A stretch of DNA of 64,000 nucleotides from Rhizobium sp. BK313 (GTDB taxonomy: Bacteria; Pseudomonadota; Alphaproteobacteria; Rhizobiales; Rhizobiaceae), in assembly GCF_014193655.1 (NCBI RefSeq), contig NZ_JACHZQ010000001.1:2418001-2482000 (forward strand), written 5' to 3'. Position numbers and translations under genes: made by a program. The stretch's first letter is position 1. The number at the start of each line of letters is the position of its first letter. Below, in pieces: positions 3,704-10,083 of the stretch. The notes beneath the pieces are model-generated. The model was not told the origin of the DNA and searched no databases. It saw only the letters and a program-made list of their open reading frames with translations.

Positions 3704-4765
3704 ATGAACATCAAGAGCCTTCTTCTCGGCTCCGCTGCTGCTCTCGCAGTAGTTTCCGGCGCTCAGGCAGCCGACGCTGTCGTCGCCGCTGAGCCGGAGC
3801 CGCTCGAATACGTCCGCATCTGCGACGCATACGGTGCCGGTTACTTCTTCATTCCGGGCACGGAAACCTGCCTCAAGATCGGCGGCATGGTTCGTACCGA
3901 AGGCAAGTGGTACAACGCCTACAACCCGGCCGACCGTTCCGGCACGCTGTGGCACACCCGCGCCCAGCTCAGCGTCGACACCGCGACCGACACCGAATAC
4001 GGTCCTCTGAAGACCAACACCATCTATCGTTTCGACTGGCAGGAAGGTGGTTCCACGACCACGAAGCTGCTGTTCGCTAACATTAGCCTGGCTGGCTTCA
4101 CCATCGGCAAGCTCGACTCCCAGTACAACCTGTACATGGGCTATGCCGGTAACGTCATCAACGACGACGTGGTCTATGACGGCCCGTACGAACTCAACCA
4201 GTTGACCTATAGCTACGACGCCGGCAACGGCTTCACGGCTATCGTCTCGCTCGAAGATTCCAACTCCGGCGCTGGCGCAACCGGCGTCAACGGCGAAGAC
4301 AGCTCGGATCATTACGCTCCGGACGTCGTTGCCGGTGCTGGCTACAAGGCTGGCAACTTCGGCTTCAAGATCGTCGGCGGTTATGACTCGATCGTCGAAG
4401 AAGGTGCTATCAAGGCTCGCGCCGATGCCGACTTCGGCGTCTTCAAGGCGTTCGTCATGGGCGGCTGGAACACGGACGGCGACAAGCTGAACAAGTACGC
4501 CAGCTCGAACGGTGCAGGCCCGGCCAAGGGCATCGGCTGGGGTGACTGGGCTGTTTGGGGCGGCGTCACCGTTCCGTTCAACGACAAGCTGCAGGCCAAC
4601 GCTCAGGTTGCCTACACCGACTCGAAGATCTTCGCAGCAACCGCCAACCTTCGTTGGAACCCGGTCAAGAACCTGCTGGTTCAGCCGGAAGTTTCCTACA
4701 CCAACTGGGATTCGATCAACGAAGACCAGTGGGCCGGCGTTCTTCGCTTCCAGCGTAGCTTCTAA
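3704..4765 (+). CDS. ropA: Outer membrane porin, RopA-like (Porin_2 family)
   Basis: General diffusion porin of the rhizobial RopA/Omp family, a beta-barrel that forms trimers in the outer membrane. The protein has 353 residues. A signal peptide at 1-22 ends in AQA. The mature start carries the family's conserved RICDAYGAGYFFIPGTETC region with two cysteines, followed by alternating beta strands. It ends in RFQRSF, where the terminal Phe is the usual BAM signal. I chose the ATG at 3704 over the GTG at 3674 because a GGAG site lies 5-8 bases upstream and the signal peptide starts there. A strong hairpin follows. Rhizobia usually carry several close paralogs, so the exact name is tentative. Confidence 0.93.
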   Translation: MNIKSLLLGSAAALAVVSGAQAADAVVAAEPEPLEYVRICDAYGAGYFFIPGTETCLKIGGMVRTEGKWYNAYNPADRSGTLWHTRAQLSVDTATDTEYGPLKTNTIYRFDWQEGGSTTTKLLFANISLAGFTIGKLDSQYNLYMGYAGNVINDDVVYDGPYELNQLTYSYDAGNGFTAIVSLEDSNSGAGATGVNGEDSSDHYAPDVVAGAGYKAGNFGFKIVGGYDSIVEEGAIKARADADFGVFKAFVMGGWNTDGDKLNKYASSNGAGPAKGIGWGDWAVWGGVTVPFNDKLQANAQVAYTDSKIFAATANLRWNPVKNLLVQPEVSYTNWDSINEDQWAGVLRFQRSF

Positions 4766-4811
4766 GACCTCATTTCCGAGATCTGATCTGACTTGACCCC
4801 TGATCGGATGG

Positions 4812-4847
4812 GGATCGGCCCTGCTTCCAGCGAAGCGGGGCCGGTCC
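4812..4847 (+). terminator. Strong hairpin terminator after the porin
   Basis: Sixteen paired bases (4812-4827 with 4832-4847, two G-U pairs) around a CAGC loop, 47 bases after the porin stop. There is no long T run, but the stem is very stable. Confidence 0.75.
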
Positions 4848-5168
4848 TTCCGAGATGGAAATTGCTACATTTGCCAATCGCTATCAGCCGGGTGCATCAC
4901 AGCCGGGCGTAGAAACTTGTTTTTGTCATATTATATATAATGTTACACTTATACTATGCGACTGACAGGATCGTTCAAAGCCAGAGGCCGCCAGCGGCAT
5001 CGTTTTGGCTTCGTGCAAACAAAGAGCAAACGGACGGTAAGCTGTAGCCGGCTTTCGCGGGCCGGGCGATAAAGCGAGGAGCTGGCGCCCGCGGCAAGGC
5101 TTGTGATGATGCACTCCAAACGCATCAATAGCATCGACAAGCCGGATTTTTTGTCGTAGAGAGGCCGC
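4848..5168. other. Non-coding region upstream of the aroG leader
   Basis: About 320 bases without a gene. It contains an AT-rich block at about 4920-4955. A plausible sigma-70 promoter lies at TTGTGA (5101-5106), 17 bases, ATCAAT (5124-5129), which would start the leader RNA near 5136. The promoter is a guess from spacing and weak matches. Confidence 0.35.
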
Positions 5169-5243
5169 ATGTCTTTCACCTACGCAAATGCCTCGCGATT
5201 TTATTCGTACCGCTGCTCTCAGCGGAGGCGGGCCCGTGCGTAG
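5169..5243 (+). CDS. Putative Phe/Tyr leader peptide of the aroG attenuator
   Basis: A 24-codon frame starting at ATG 5169 behind a good ribosome site (GAGAGG, 5159-5164). The peptide begins MSFTYANASRFYSYRC and ends at TAG 5241-5243. Five of 24 codons are Phe or Tyr (residues 3, 5, 11, 12, 14), with the cluster FYSY at codons 11-14. Codons 14-15 overlap the first arm of a hairpin (5210-5215/5220-5225). An intrinsic terminator follows at 5275-5303, just before a DAHP synthase gene, the first enzyme of Phe/Tyr/Trp synthesis. This layout is that of a translation-coupled attenuator. Confidence 0.7.
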   Translation: MSFTYANASRFYSYRCSQRRRARA

Positions 5244-5303
5244 GTAAAACTGACGCAACGACATAAACCCGAACAGCCGCTAGTCCTACCTGGCGGCTTT
5301 TTT
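5178..5303 (+). promoter_or_regulatory. Transcription attenuator of aroG (alternative hairpins plus terminator)
   Basis: Seen in the sequence: an outer stem ACCTACGCA (5178-5186) with TGCGTAGGT (5237-5245); hairpin 1:2 CCGCTG (5210-5215) with CAGCGG (5220-5225); a possible 2:3 pairing AGCGG (5221-5225) with CCGCT (5277-5281); and terminator 3:4 AGCCGCTA (5275-5282) with TGGCGGCT (5291-5298), ending in six T (5298-5303). A ribosome stalled on the FYSY codons would cover arm 1, free arm 2 to pair with arm 3, and so block the terminator. The 2:3 helix is only 5 bp, so the exact fold needs a thermodynamic check. Confidence 0.65.
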
Positions 5304-5338
5304 GTCGGCACGGTATGACCCAAAAAGGAACCGATACC

Positions 5339-6403
5339 GTGTTGAATTCCACTGATGATTTGCGAATTATCGAGATCACTGCCCTTACGCCCCCCTCTCG
5401 CATTATAGAGGAGATTCCGCGGGATGAGGCTGTCACCACGACCGTGACGGAAACTCGCAACGCCGTTCACGGCATCCTGCATAATCACGATGATCGATTG
5501 ATTGTGGTCATCGGCCCCTGCTCCATCCATGACCCCGTCGCGGCGCGAGATTATGCTGCCCGCCTGAAGGAACAGCGCAACCGGTTCGCCGACGATCTCG
5601 AAATTATCATGCGGGTCTATTTCGAGAAGCCTCGAACCACGGTCGGCTGGAAGGGTCTGATAAACGACCCACATCTCGATGGAAGCTACCGTATTGAAGA
5701 GGGATTGCGCATCGCCAGAAGCCTTCTGGTCGACGTCAACGAAATCGGGCTGCCGGCCGGCTGCGAATATCTCGACACGATCACGCCGCAGTACATTTCC
5801 GATTTGGTAAGCTGGGGCGCTATCGGTGCGAGGACCACCGAGAGCCAGGTGCATCGCCAGCTTGCCTCGGGCCTTTCATGCCCGGTCGGTTTCAAAAACG
5901 GGACGAACGGCGATGCAAAGATAGCCCTCGATGCAATCGTGGCGGCCACGCAACCGCATCATTTCCCGGCCGTAACCAAGGATGGCTTGGCGGCGATTGC
6001 CTCGACGCGCGGCAATGAGGACTGCCACCTCATTCTGCGCGGCGGCATGCAACCCAACTATGATGCGGCCAGCGTGCAAGCGGTTTCGGTACAGGCTCGG
6101 CAAGCCGGACTTGATCCGCGGATCATCATCGATGCCAGCCATGCCAATAGCGGCAAGGACCCCGAGAACCAGCCGATGGTCGTCAGCGCCGTCGCAGAGC
6201 AAATATCCGCGGGCGACCATCGCATCAAAGGCATGATGATGGAGAGCAACATCGTCCGCGGCCGCCAGGATCTCGTTCCCGGCAAAGCGTTGGTCTATGG
6301 CCAGAGCATCACAGACGGCTGCATTGATTGGCCAACCTCCGTCCGCACATTGGAGGAACTGGCTCGAGCCGCACAAACAAGGCGGCGGCTGCTTCGCAAG
6401 TAG
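5339..6403 (+). CDS. aroG: 3-deoxy-7-phosphoheptulonate (DAHP) synthase, class I-alpha
   Basis: Condenses phosphoenolpyruvate and erythrose 4-phosphate, the first step of the shikimate pathway. Family motifs are intact: VIGPCSIHDP, RVYFEKPRTTVGWKG, the KNGTNGD loop, LRGG and DASHANSGKD (metal and substrate ligands). I prefer the GTG at 5339. An AAAAAGGA site (5322-5329) sits 9 bases upstream, and the protein then starts VLNSTDDLRI, aligning with the E. coli AroG N-terminus; length is then 354 residues against about 350 for AroG. An ATG at 5315 is in frame but has no ribosome site and touches the terminator. Known AroG/F/H enzymes are feedback inhibited; which amino acid applies here is not visible. 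Confidence 0.93.
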   Translation: MLNSTDDLRIIEITALTPPSRIIEEIPRDEAVTTTVTETRNAVHGILHNHDDRLIVVIGPCSIHDPVAARDYAARLKEQRNRFADDLEIIMRVYFEKPRTTVGWKGLINDPHLDGSYRIEEGLRIARSLLVDVNEIGLPAGCEYLDTITPQYISDLVSWGAIGARTTESQVHRQLASGLSCPVGFKNGTNGDAKIALDAIVAATQPHHFPAVTKDGLAAIASTRGNEDCHLILRGGMQPNYDAASVQAVSVQARQAGLDPRIIIDASHANSGKDPENQPMVVSAVAEQISAGDHRIKGMMMESNIVRGRQDLVPGKALVYGQSITDGCIDWPTSVRTLEELARAAQTRRRLLRK

Positions 6404-6415
6404 CATTCCGACCAA

Positions 6416-6452
6416 GGGATTGTTCACCTAGTACGCGTTGGTGAACGATCCC
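6416..6452. terminator. Inverted repeat between convergent aroG and methyltransferase genes
   Basis: GGGATTGTTCACC (6416-6428) pairs with GGTGAACGATCCC (6440-6452) over 13 bases with one G-U, loop of 11. It sits between two convergent genes, so a bidirectional terminator is the simplest reading, although no T run follows on either side. Confidence 0.5.
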
Positions 6453-6513
6453 TGGCCGCCGTCAGGCTTGTCCTCGCCGAGTGGCGAAGACAAAAATCTC
6501 CCTTCGATCCGTT

Positions 6514-7296
6514 TCAGGATCGCCCGCGACCGACGATCAGCTTTAGCGAGCCCTCGAATTCCGGCTGCGTGCGTAGATGCCCGTATTTAGCATCCCAGGT
6601 GCCGTCCTTCAGGTCACGGCTGAGATCGGCGACGAAGCGATCGCCGATCGAGGCATCAACGAAGCTCCAGGCGGAATTCGCGAGACGTGCGCCCGGCTCC
6701 AGCAGGCGTTCCGGGCGCCCGTAATAGGCCTCTCCGAAACCGTCCGTGCAACTCAGTGGGATCGGCACCGGAATGACCTTGGCATTGCCGCCTAGCCCTT
6801 CGCTGATGGTCGCCATTTGCGGATAGCGGCGCGCCTCTACCGCGATCACTTCCGGCGCATAGTCGACGAGCCAGAAGCGATTGAGCTCGTCCGGATCGCC
6901 GGTCAGGATCAGGACCGGACCGCGCGTCACCCGCCGCATCTCGGCAAGCCCTGCTGCCAGATCGGACCACTGATGCACGGTGAATGTCGCCATGGAGGCA
7001 TCGAAACTGCCGTCTGCAAAAGGAAGCTTCTCGGCGGTGGCATCGATGGCGGAGGGCAGATGCGCGGGCCGCTGCGCCCGCATCGACGCTGAGGGCTCGA
7101 CTGCCGTCACCGCACGGTCAACGGGCTCATAGGAGCCGGCGCCGGCGCCGACATTGAGGACACTGCGGGCATCGCCCAATGCAGCGCGGATAAACGCCGC
7201 AATATGCGGATCGGGCTGGCGGTATTTTGCGTAATTCGTGCCAATGACGCCGTAGTTTGCATCACCGGCGCTACCGTCCTGATGTCGGTTGACCAT
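6514..7296 (-). CDS. Class I SAM-dependent methyltransferase (Methyltransf_11 type)
   Basis: A 260-residue Rossmann-fold methyltransferase. The SAM-binding glycine loop is VLNVGAGAGSYEP, followed by the acidic residue of motif II (AVEPSASM) and the LPFADGSFDASMATFTVHQW region typical of Methyltransf_11. I start it at ATG 7296 because GAGGA lies just upstream and the SAM domain begins about 30 residues later; a longer frame to 7500 has no support. The substrate is unknown. It diverges from the LysR gene at 7501. Confidence 0.85.
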   Translation of the reverse strand: MVNRHQDGSAGDANYGVIGTNYAKYRQPDPHIAAFIRAALGDARSVLNVGAGAGSYEPVDRAVTAVEPSASMRAQRPAHLPSAIDATAEKLPFADGSFDASMATFTVHQWSDLAAGLAEMRRVTRGPVLILTGDPDELNRFWLVDYAPEVIAVEARRYPQMATISEGLGGNAKVIPVPIPLSCTDGFGEAYYGRPERLLEPGARLANSAWSFVDASIGDRFVADLSRDLKDGTWDAKYGHLRTQPEFEGSLKLIVGRGRS

Positions 7297-8915: not shown

Positions 8916-9449
8916 TCAGGACGCGGCACGTTGCGTTGCATCAGCGCCTGATTGCCTGACCGGCAGTTTCCAACCGGGGCGGACGAAATGGCAGGTATAG
9001 CCGTTCGGAATGCGCTCCAGATAGTCCTGGTGCTCCGGCTCGGCTTCCCAGAAGTCGCTTGCCGGCGTCACTTCAGTGACGACCTTGCCCGGCCAGAGAC
9101 CGGATGCCTCGACATCGGCGATCGTGTCCAGGGCGACCCGCTTCTGCTCTTCACTCGTATAGAAGATCGCCGAGCGGTAGCTCGTGCCGACATCGTTGCC
9201 CTGGCGGTTGCGCGTGGTCGGATCATGGATCTGGAAGAAGAATTCCAGTAGGTCGCGATAGCTGATCTTCTCGGGATCGAAGGTGATCTCGATCGCTTCC
9301 GCATGGGTGCCGTGGTTGCGATAGGTCGCATTGCGGACCTCGCCGCCGGTATAGCCAACGCGTGTCGAAATGACGCCCTTATAGCGGCGGATGAGGTCCT
9401 GCATGCCCCAGAAACAACCGCCGGCGAGAACTGCACGTTCCGTAGTCAT
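8916..9449 (-). CDS. msrA: Peptide-methionine (S)-S-oxide reductase MsrA
   Basis: Reduces the S form of methionine sulfoxide in proteins, with electrons from thioredoxin. The catalytic GCFWG motif is at residues 11-15 (Cys12), followed by VGYTGG and the [11 protein letters not shown] segment. A resolving Cys is at about 153 (GYTCHF). The length of 177 residues is normal for a single-domain MsrA. The ATG overlaps the msrB stop by 4 bases, so the two are translationally coupled. Confidence 0.96.
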
Positions 9450-9895
9450 CGGATATCCTCCACTTGGTCGAGATAGGCACCATAGCCCTCAGCTTCCATC
9501 CTGTCGCGATGCACGAAGCGAAGGGAGGCGGAGTTGATGCAATAGCGCAGACCGCCGCGATCCTGCGGTCCATCGGGAAAAACATGACCCAGGTGGCTGT
9601 CGCCATGGATAGAGCGCACTTCGGTGCGCATCATGCCGTGCGAGAGGTCGGTGAGCTCATTGATGTTGGTAGTTTCGATAGGCTTGGTGAAGCTCGGCCA
9701 GCCGCAGCCTGAATCGAACTTGTCTGAGGAGGCAAACAGCGGCTCGCCAGATACGATGTCGACATAGATGCCCGGCTGCTTGTTGTCGAGATATTCGCCC
9801 GTGCCGGGACGCTCGGTACCGCTTTGCTGCGTCACACGGTACTGTTCGGGGGACAGCTTCGCTATAGCCTCGGAAGTTTTGCTGTAGTTCTGCAT
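9446..9895 (-). CDS. msrB: Peptide-methionine (R)-S-oxide reductase MsrB (zinc-free type)
   Basis: Reduces the R form of methionine sulfoxide in proteins. The catalytic Cys lies in [11 protein letters not shown] (about residue 119), with [10 protein letters not shown] before it and SGCGWPSF supplying a likely resolving Cys. The paired CxxC zinc cysteines of many MsrB proteins are missing ([13 protein letters not shown] where CxxC would sit), which marks the zinc-free form. I chose MQNYSKT at 9895; the frame continues to 9922 without a better start. First gene of msrB-msrA-DUF6314. Confidence 0.95.
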
Positions 9896-10083
9896 TCCTG
9901 TTCTCCTTGCCCTCAGACGCATGTTTCGAACTCAACCAGGTACTACGAGAGAACACTGGATATCGTTACAGACATCAAGCTCGATGAGCGTCGCGGGAGT
10001 GGTTGCGACGCAGATATAGGTATCGGGCAGCCGATTTGCCATATCGCACACGGCGGCGTGATGCGCCGCCCAGCCTCAGGCAA

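Follow-up and report, generated by a model that had tools for sequence, protein, structure and literature searches.

The question that this locus raises is whether a short frame rich in Phe and Tyr codons, lying together with a hairpin in front of a DAHP synthase gene of Rhizobium sp. BK313, is a leader peptide frame through which the gene is controlled by attenuation. In the present study, we analysed the window (the whole stretch of 64,000 nucleotides, with a GC content of 59.7%) and compared the region with related loci in other genomes. From the sequences compared, we consider it highly probable that the region is a ribosome-mediated transcription attenuator, which senses uncharged Phe-tRNA and Tyr-tRNA and, in some relatives, perhaps also uncharged Trp-tRNA.

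Results

The DAHP synthase gene and its surroundings

5339 to 6403, plus strand: class I-alpha DAHP synthase gene, GTG start; the longest frame runs from 5315; TIGR00034

The gene was assigned to class I-alpha by a profile search, in which its product matched TIGR00034 with 506.4 bits against a cut-off of 173.2; it remained below the cut-off of the AroG model NF006723 (522.5 against 568). The GTG at 5339 is preceded by AAGGA. The motif [AT]ACCGTG was found at most 70 bases past the T run of the hairpin in 96 of the 115 leader-bearing Rhizobium loci, and an in-frame ATG stands at most eight codons ahead of it in only 29 of these 96, the example in the window being 5315. The closest named relatives of the gene are found in R. 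lusitanum, R. miluonense, R. tropici and R. dioscoreae, with 86-89% identity.

The next gene-like frame 3' of the DAHP synthase gene is on the opposite strand, so the gene is probably transcribed alone. The same genome holds two class II DAHP synthase genes (G000:C1:1221481-1222791 and G000:C8:328598-329911), and no aromatic leader frame was found in the approximately 800 bases upstream of each of them. The class I-alpha enzyme with its putative attenuator is thus a third isozyme, beside two whose genes have no such leader. Class II matches numbered two in this genome, compared with one in each of the 12 other members of the genus that were searched.

The frame upstream of the leader is one that we take to be porin-like. 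We considered whether the hairpin could terminate this upstream gene and rejected it, because the frame stops at 4765, some 500 bases upstream of the hairpin, and because the hairpin travels with the DAHP synthase gene across loci. Two further observations concern the window in general. An AT-rich stretch at 4917-4955, about 215-250 bases ahead of the leader, is unusual at the GC content of the window. On the minus strand, 8916-9922 holds two adjoining frames whose translations, we assume, resemble methionine sulfoxide reductases A and B.

The leader frame and its aromatic codons

5169 to 5243, plus strand: leader peptide frame MSFTYANASRFYSYRCSQRRRARA, ATG at 5169, TAG at 5241-5243, 24 codons
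5199 to 5210, plus strand: control codons Phe11 TTT, Tyr12 TAT, Ser13 TCG and Tyr14 TAC, conserved in Rhizobium leaders

As the initial annotation had described, the frame of 24 codons carries five Phe/Tyr codons (F3, Y5, F11, Y12 and Y14), four of them in residues 5-14. A cluster of codons for the end products within a short frame is expected of an attenuator, and here F11, Y12 and Y/F14 of the cluster are conserved, residues 11-14 reading F-Y-(S/W/Y)-(Y/F) in nearly all Rhizobium leaders. Among 100 distinct 24-residue Rhizobium leaders, position 11 is Phe in all 100, position 12 is Tyr in 99, and position 14 is occupied by Tyr in 90 leaders and by Phe in the other 10, with Ser (57), Trp (31), Tyr (11) and Cys (1) at position 13. 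The conservation extends to the codons themselves, codon 11 being TTT in 100 and codon 12 TAT in 99 of the same 100 leaders. In three groups, TTT made up 59, 74 and 76% of the Phe codons of the leaders against 6, 7 and 17% of those in the DAHP synthase genes; for Tyr, there was no steady preference for the rarer codon (TAT 53, 49 and 60% in leaders against 69, 43 and 36% in genes). In one theoretical treatment of attenuation, a particular choice among synonymous control codons is linked to high sensitivity (PMC1183508).

Judged by its substitutions, the leader frame overall is evolving as coding sequence. The in-frame dN/dS is 0.60 in the clade of the window, 0.61 in a second clade and 0.69 in all Rhizobium, and the other two frames give values of 0.91-1.46. 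It is hardly credible that the frame arose by chance and that translation plays no role, the hairpin being simply an ordinary terminator or one controlled by a protein or ligand: the frame is conserved, its control codons lie directly ahead of the first hairpin arm, and leaders that are otherwise unlike one another have aromatic codons in several groups of proteobacteria. Moreover, no Rfam riboswitch family matches, the whole window giving two tRNAs only. The sole Rfam match up to an E value of 10 within 5050-5400, isrK, was rejected, as it scored 16.6 bits against a threshold of 50.

Related leaders include both Ser (TCG) and Trp (TGG) at codon 13 (5205-5207 in the window), and from this interchange it appears that Trp sensing may be switched on or off by one base change. 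Codons for all three of Phe, Tyr and Trp are present in 2 of 38 distinct leaders of the window's clade, in 31 of 64 from other Rhizobium clades and in 41 of 60 from the rest. The window's own leader has no Trp codon.

Predicted promoter and start of the leader RNA

5134 to 5139, plus strand: predicted -35 element TCGACA, 17 bases from the -10 element; CATCGACA at more than 90% per position
5157 to 5162, plus strand: predicted -10 element TAGAGA, with 6 bases between it and the ATG; clade form TCGTAGAGA
5169 to 5303, plus strand: predicted leader RNA after termination, its 5' end at the AUG or adjacent to it, as judged from promoter spacing and terminator

The frame had initially been credited with a good ribosome site, and this view has to be revised, since AGAGAGG is kept in close relatives only and TCGTAGAGA is conserved instead. 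In the 38 distinct leaders of the window's clade, both TCGTAGAGA and CATCGACA are kept at more than 90% per position, and 32 of these 38 have 6 bases between the end of the highest-scoring promoter-like pair and the ATG. What had been taken for a ribosome site is more probably the -10 element of such a promoter. Over three groups, the highest-scoring pair ends at a distance of 4-10 bases from the ATG in 32 of 38, 54 of 64 and 45 of 59 distinct leaders, compared with 13-14% of shuffles; the distance is 6 or 7 bases in 32, 54 and 34 leaders, and the spacer is of 17 bases in 32, 52 and 33. With such promoter spacing, the leader RNA probably starts at the AUG, and translation of the leader probably takes place on a leaderless mRNA. 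A transcription start at the AUG has been published for trpL of Sinorhizobium meliloti (PMC7298713, PMC10117765).

We regard as improbable an arrangement with a longer 5' untranslated region, in which AGAGAGG would act as a Shine-Dalgarno-like site and attenuation would otherwise be the same. It draws on the window itself, where GAGAGG stands 4 bases ahead of the ATG and the promoter scan scored another site higher, one that ends 34 bases before the ATG. The wider comparison speaks against it, through the confinement of AGAGAGG to close relatives, the position of the promoter-like pair in most leaders and the Shine-Dalgarno-like matches, which were no longer than in shuffles (means 3.18 and 3.35, 2.02 and 2.13, and 2.12 and 2.16 for leaders and shuffles of the three groups). 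The controls for promoters and Shine-Dalgarno matches were base shuffles.

Hairpin 1:2 and the terminator

5210 to 5215, plus strand: arm 1 CCGCTG, starting at the last base of the Tyr14 codon
5220 to 5225, plus strand: arm 2 CAGCGG, pairing with arm 1
5275 to 5303, plus strand: intrinsic terminator in which arms 3 and 4 enclose the loop 5284-5289, with the T run at 5298-5303; all alignment cells paired
5178 to 5245, plus strand: outer stem (5178-5186 pairing with 5237-5245), predicted for the leader of the window sequence when no ribosome is on it

An attenuator should have an intrinsic terminator between leader frame and biosynthetic gene, and one is found here. It had been reported as a terminator with six T at 35 bases before the GTG, which agrees with a 9-bp stem (5275-5283/5290-5298), a loop of 6, the T run 5298-5303 and 35 bases between this run and the GTG at 5339. 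Just past the control codons, at a conserved position, lies the 1:2 hairpin with two compensated pairs, which would be the anti-antiterminator.

The conservation of these structures was evaluated on an alignment (A1) of 34 of the 102 distinct Rhizobium leaders, picked to differ, in which one row (L179) begins at an internal ATG; its mean column identity is 81%. The 1:2 hairpin and terminator together have 99.0% of cells paired. In the terminator stem the figure is 100%, with one pair changed from G-C to A-U in 5 of the 34 leaders, and in the 1:2 hairpin it is 97.5%, with two pairs doubly changed and the innermost pair absent in 5 of the 34 sequences. The compensatory changes that the initial annotation had named as a check are thus present to some extent in both stems. 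They affect three pairs (U-A to G-U or A-U, G-C to C-G and G-C to A-U) and are confined to 4 or 5 related sequences, so they represent few events. Overall, the reading of the region as an attenuator gains support from homologous loci, which have the peptide frame, conserved Phe/Tyr codons and the terminator.

The minimum free energy of 5169-5298 is -51.0, compared with -36.6 (sd 3.3) for shuffles. A scan of 4600-7000 for bare terminators gave 1 against 2.2 expected, which is not above chance. In the same 34 leaders, the terminator loop 5284-5289 and its edges are nearly invariant (A1 columns 121-126, TCTACC, with CAACC in one clade), and the loop is conserved although it is unpaired in the proposed model. 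A loop-to-stem pairing GTAG:CTAC was dropped, because by eye in the alignment it breaks in rows with GTAA or CAAC.

The candidate antiterminator

5221 to 5281, plus strand: composite antiterminator, 5221-5225 with 5277-5281, 5229-5232 with 5268-5271, and an inner hairpin of 5235-5243 with 5250-5260

The segment 5216-5285, which would be free when a ribosome stalls on the aromatic codons, folds into a nested structure of AGCGG:CCGCU, CGGG:CCCG and a hairpin around the stop codon. The antiterminator segment reaches -20.8 kcal/mol, against -15.0 kcal/mol for the terminator alone, and the stalled-state folds are unremarkable for their composition (z of -0.97, for 5216-5285, and -0.61 against shuffles). 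In the 34 Rhizobium leaders, the helices of the antiterminator have 97.1, 96.3 and 77.1% of cells paired and four of the five outer pairs are invariant; its 5-bp core is present in 152 of 162 distinct leaders. Extension of this core helix was not significant, 1657 of 10000 permutations being equally good. For the middle helix, none of 5000 permutations was as good as the own pairs of 80 flank pairs, and 1 of 5000 for the 47 outside Rhizobium, with composition controls that deviate too (z of -1.3 to -3.2, where the real pairs gave -4.6 and -4.5). At the place of the middle helix, other sequences are found in Alcaligenaceae (GGGAA:TTCCC) and Devosia (GGCT:AGCC).

The pairing of arm 2 with its own arm 3, compared with a foreign arm 3, gave a Wilcoxon p of 0.065. 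Against shuffled segments, the pairing of arms 2 and 3 had a mean z of -1.37, and 56% of 62 loci were below -1.64; in just 18% of the 62 loci do at most 5% of synonymous recodings pair as well. These three comparisons lend the pairing weak to moderate support. With the ribosome stalled, pairing of arm 3 was 0.53 against 0.52 for a shuffled segment, and this simple energy test is uninformative. RNAalifold on A1 returned the 1:2 hairpin, the terminator and a 3-bp stem; the antiterminator was absent, as is expected when one fold is reported. Taken together, a composite antiterminator exclusive with the terminator is conserved and energetically plausible with mixed statistical support, and we consider it likely, not proved. 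The frame, the codons, the terminator and the possible alternative pairings, with their conservation, are established by the sequence.

Proposed mechanism

From these features we infer translation of the leader, stalling, termination, the leaderless start and the identity of the sensed amino acids. In the proposed mechanism, RNA polymerase would start at or beside the AUG of the leader frame, and a ribosome would load on the 5' end of the RNA. If Phe-tRNA and Tyr-tRNA are charged (in many relatives, perhaps Trp-tRNA too), the ribosome would pass codons 11-14 and reach the stop codon at 5241-5243, where it would block the downstream pairing of arm 2 and the bases behind it; arms 3 and 4 would then form the terminator, and the RNA would end near 5303. 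If the cognate tRNAs are uncharged, the ribosome would stall at codons 11-14 and cover arm 1, leaving arm 2 and the following bases to pair with the bases ahead of and within arm 3. Formation of this composite antiterminator would preclude the terminator, and the first gene of the shikimate pathway would be transcribed. Since the same arrangement is found in many relatives, the gene is very probably switched on under shortage of Phe or Tyr.

It is also conceivable, at a rather low probability, that the attenuator works as described and that in addition its products, either the leader RNA released by termination or the peptide of 24 residues, act on further genes in trans, for which rnTrpL and peTrpL of S. 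meliloti offer a precedent (PMC7298713, PMC10117765). The predicted plan is the same as in S. meliloti, with a leaderless frame and a terminated RNA of about 135 bases, and the mean column identity in the 34 diverse Rhizobium leaders is 81%, as given above. Furthermore, leader codons 2-10 have an in-frame dN/dS of 0.43-0.58, so the peptide may be under some constraint. On the other side, codons 15-24, which hold the hairpin, have an in-frame dN/dS of 1.10-1.31 and show no peptide constraint, and control codons and RNA pairings account for much of the conservation.

Distribution within Rhizobium

The DAHP synthase gene is present in 119 of 148 Rhizobium genomes, and when the upstream regions of all 119 were inspected, the leader frame with a T run was found in 115. 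A blastn search with the leader alone matched 109 of the 148 genomes, all within the gene-bearing 119, and none of the 29 genomes without the gene. Ten gene-bearing genomes had no blastn match to the leader; four of them are without leader and six have a divergent one. Four Rhizobium loci (L188, L200, L201 and L202) have the gene at 70-73% identity and no leader; in these genomes, the gene may have been relocated or its control may have been lost.

To meet the definition used in the scan of the 64-kb window, a site had to combine a frame of 14-40 codons, at least three F/Y/W in six residues and a terminator at most 90 bases away. On both strands, the leader site alone was returned (1 on the plus and 0 on the minus strand), and six simulated windows drawn with the same dinucleotide frequencies gave 0 sites.

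Distribution beyond the genus

A set of 202 loci was chosen by similarity to the gene (L001-L203 minus L006, which has 29% identity and no match under the threshold). At least three F/Y/W in six residues ahead of the T run were found in 183 of these 202 gene-matching loci, corresponding to 162 distinct leaders, a number also given because some loci are one species from two collections. With a hairpin required and at least three F/Y/W in nine residues, 179 of the 202 real loci passed against 2 of 603 simulated regions, in which dinucleotide frequencies were likewise kept. As the loci are related to one another, such counts do not represent independent events. The 19 loci without a leader call comprise L043 (masked), L072 (cut at a contig end), the Rhizobium loci L188 and L200-L202, and 13 distant loci.

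The same plan with another leader sequence is seen in Devosia, Kaistia, Caulobacter, Alcaligenaceae, Oxalobacteraceae and Pseudoxanthomonas; examples of the peptides are MINAATFYWYFSYPLPAEAIARVS (Devosia), MILAASQQLFWYFSYPTPLAPGGDRLA (Caulobacter), MTATRASFYFWYYFPKPLAEEGLRSP (Pseudoxanthomonas) and MRTVFQFFFFYFYAFPKPLVEEGNGRTH (Alcaligenaceae). In alpha-, beta- and xanthomonad-type gammaproteobacteria, many relatives of the gene have unlike aromatic leaders (e.g. FYWYFSYP) and others none. A loose criterion was passed by 49 of 74 loci among the matches listed for the class and phylum samples (34 newly returned and 40 regions); six of the 49 were judged by eye to be chance frames (L254, L260, L261, L268, L280 and L286), and about 43 look real. 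The other 25 of these 74 loci, among the matches listed, have no aromatic frame, most of them at 55-63% identity; they include L214, L216, L236, L252 and L255 at 62-72% identity, L216 being cut at a contig end. The gene is rare in the class sample (8 of 289 genomes, the window's own included). By these counts, the leader arrangement is frequent in part of the phylum without being universal.

Discussion

Attenuation of a DAHP synthase gene has a published example in Corynebacterium glutamicum, where the aroR leader (Phe-Tyr-Phe) attenuates aroF (Neshat et al. 2014, via PMC11802643 and PMC4046766). As in our locus, an aromatic leader, there with Phe-Tyr-Phe, precedes the DAHP synthase gene, and stalling under Phe limitation raises transcription there. 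Unlike our locus, it belongs to an actinobacterium, and Tyr availability was reported to be without effect; the two are likened by description, not by sequence. The initial annotation knew of no attenuator of a class I-alpha DAHP synthase. For rhizobia, we likewise found none in the literature searched; outside them, the aroF leader of C. glutamicum is a published attenuator of a DAHP synthase gene. The kind of attenuator is therefore already known, and the proteobacterial member appears to be new.

In rhizobia, trpL/rnTrpL of S. meliloti trpE(G) is likewise a ribosome-dependent attenuator with a leaderless leader mRNA; it differs in its Trp codons, its length of 14 residues and the gene that it controls (PMC7298713, PMC10117765). 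For the aromatic gene region hisHb-tyrA of Agrobacterium tumefaciens, a rhizobial relative, an attenuator has been predicted; there the gene is another one and the entry describes no leader peptide (PMC1173090). The pheL leader of pheA in Escherichia coli also senses Phe through a leader peptide, and differs in serving a terminal-branch gene, while the gene studied here encodes the first common step (PMC11802643).

Several candidates at genes of the same pathway have been listed. In Acholeplasma, the candidate uORFC-13-1 upstream of aroF likewise stands before a DAHP synthase gene, contains one or more Phe codons and is accompanied by a terminator; it is reported only from Acholeplasma and environmental sequences and is likened by description (PMC8632094). 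Two candidate Phe/Tyr uORFs at shikimate genes are given as uncharacterised in a figure legend (PMC6429828, Fig. 6b). Their five genomes include the alphaproteobacterium HIMB5 and no rhizobium, and these uORFs may be identical with the leader described here. Attenuation has also been predicted for aroF and aroH of Shewanella (PMC2659441, table rows) and put forward as a hypothesis for aroF of E. coli (PMC8632094). These are again class I DAHP synthases, likened by description, and are gammaproteobacterial predictions or hypotheses. A word search of the available text of PMC2965389, PMC2864571, PMC4833913, PMC11109978, PMC1273637 and PMC3766115 gave no mention of a DAHP synthase leader. We found neither an attenuator of a rhizobial DAHP synthase nor a proteobacterial family like it in the main texts of the open-access literature searched, and the proteobacterial member is apparently undescribed so far.

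Conclusion

The flow into the aromatic amino acids as a whole is governed by DAHP synthase. The leader could serve to test whether several amino acids can be sensed by a single leader, and to test attenuation on a leaderless RNA. More tentatively, we suggest that one leader family, ancient or recurrently rebuilt, may read Phe, Tyr and Trp jointly from leaderless mRNA in alpha-, beta- and xanthomonad gammaproteobacteria. Leaders for Ile, Val and Leu act comparably for the branched-chain pathway. If the suggestion is true, the first enzyme of the shared pathway would be set by the scarcest of its three end products.
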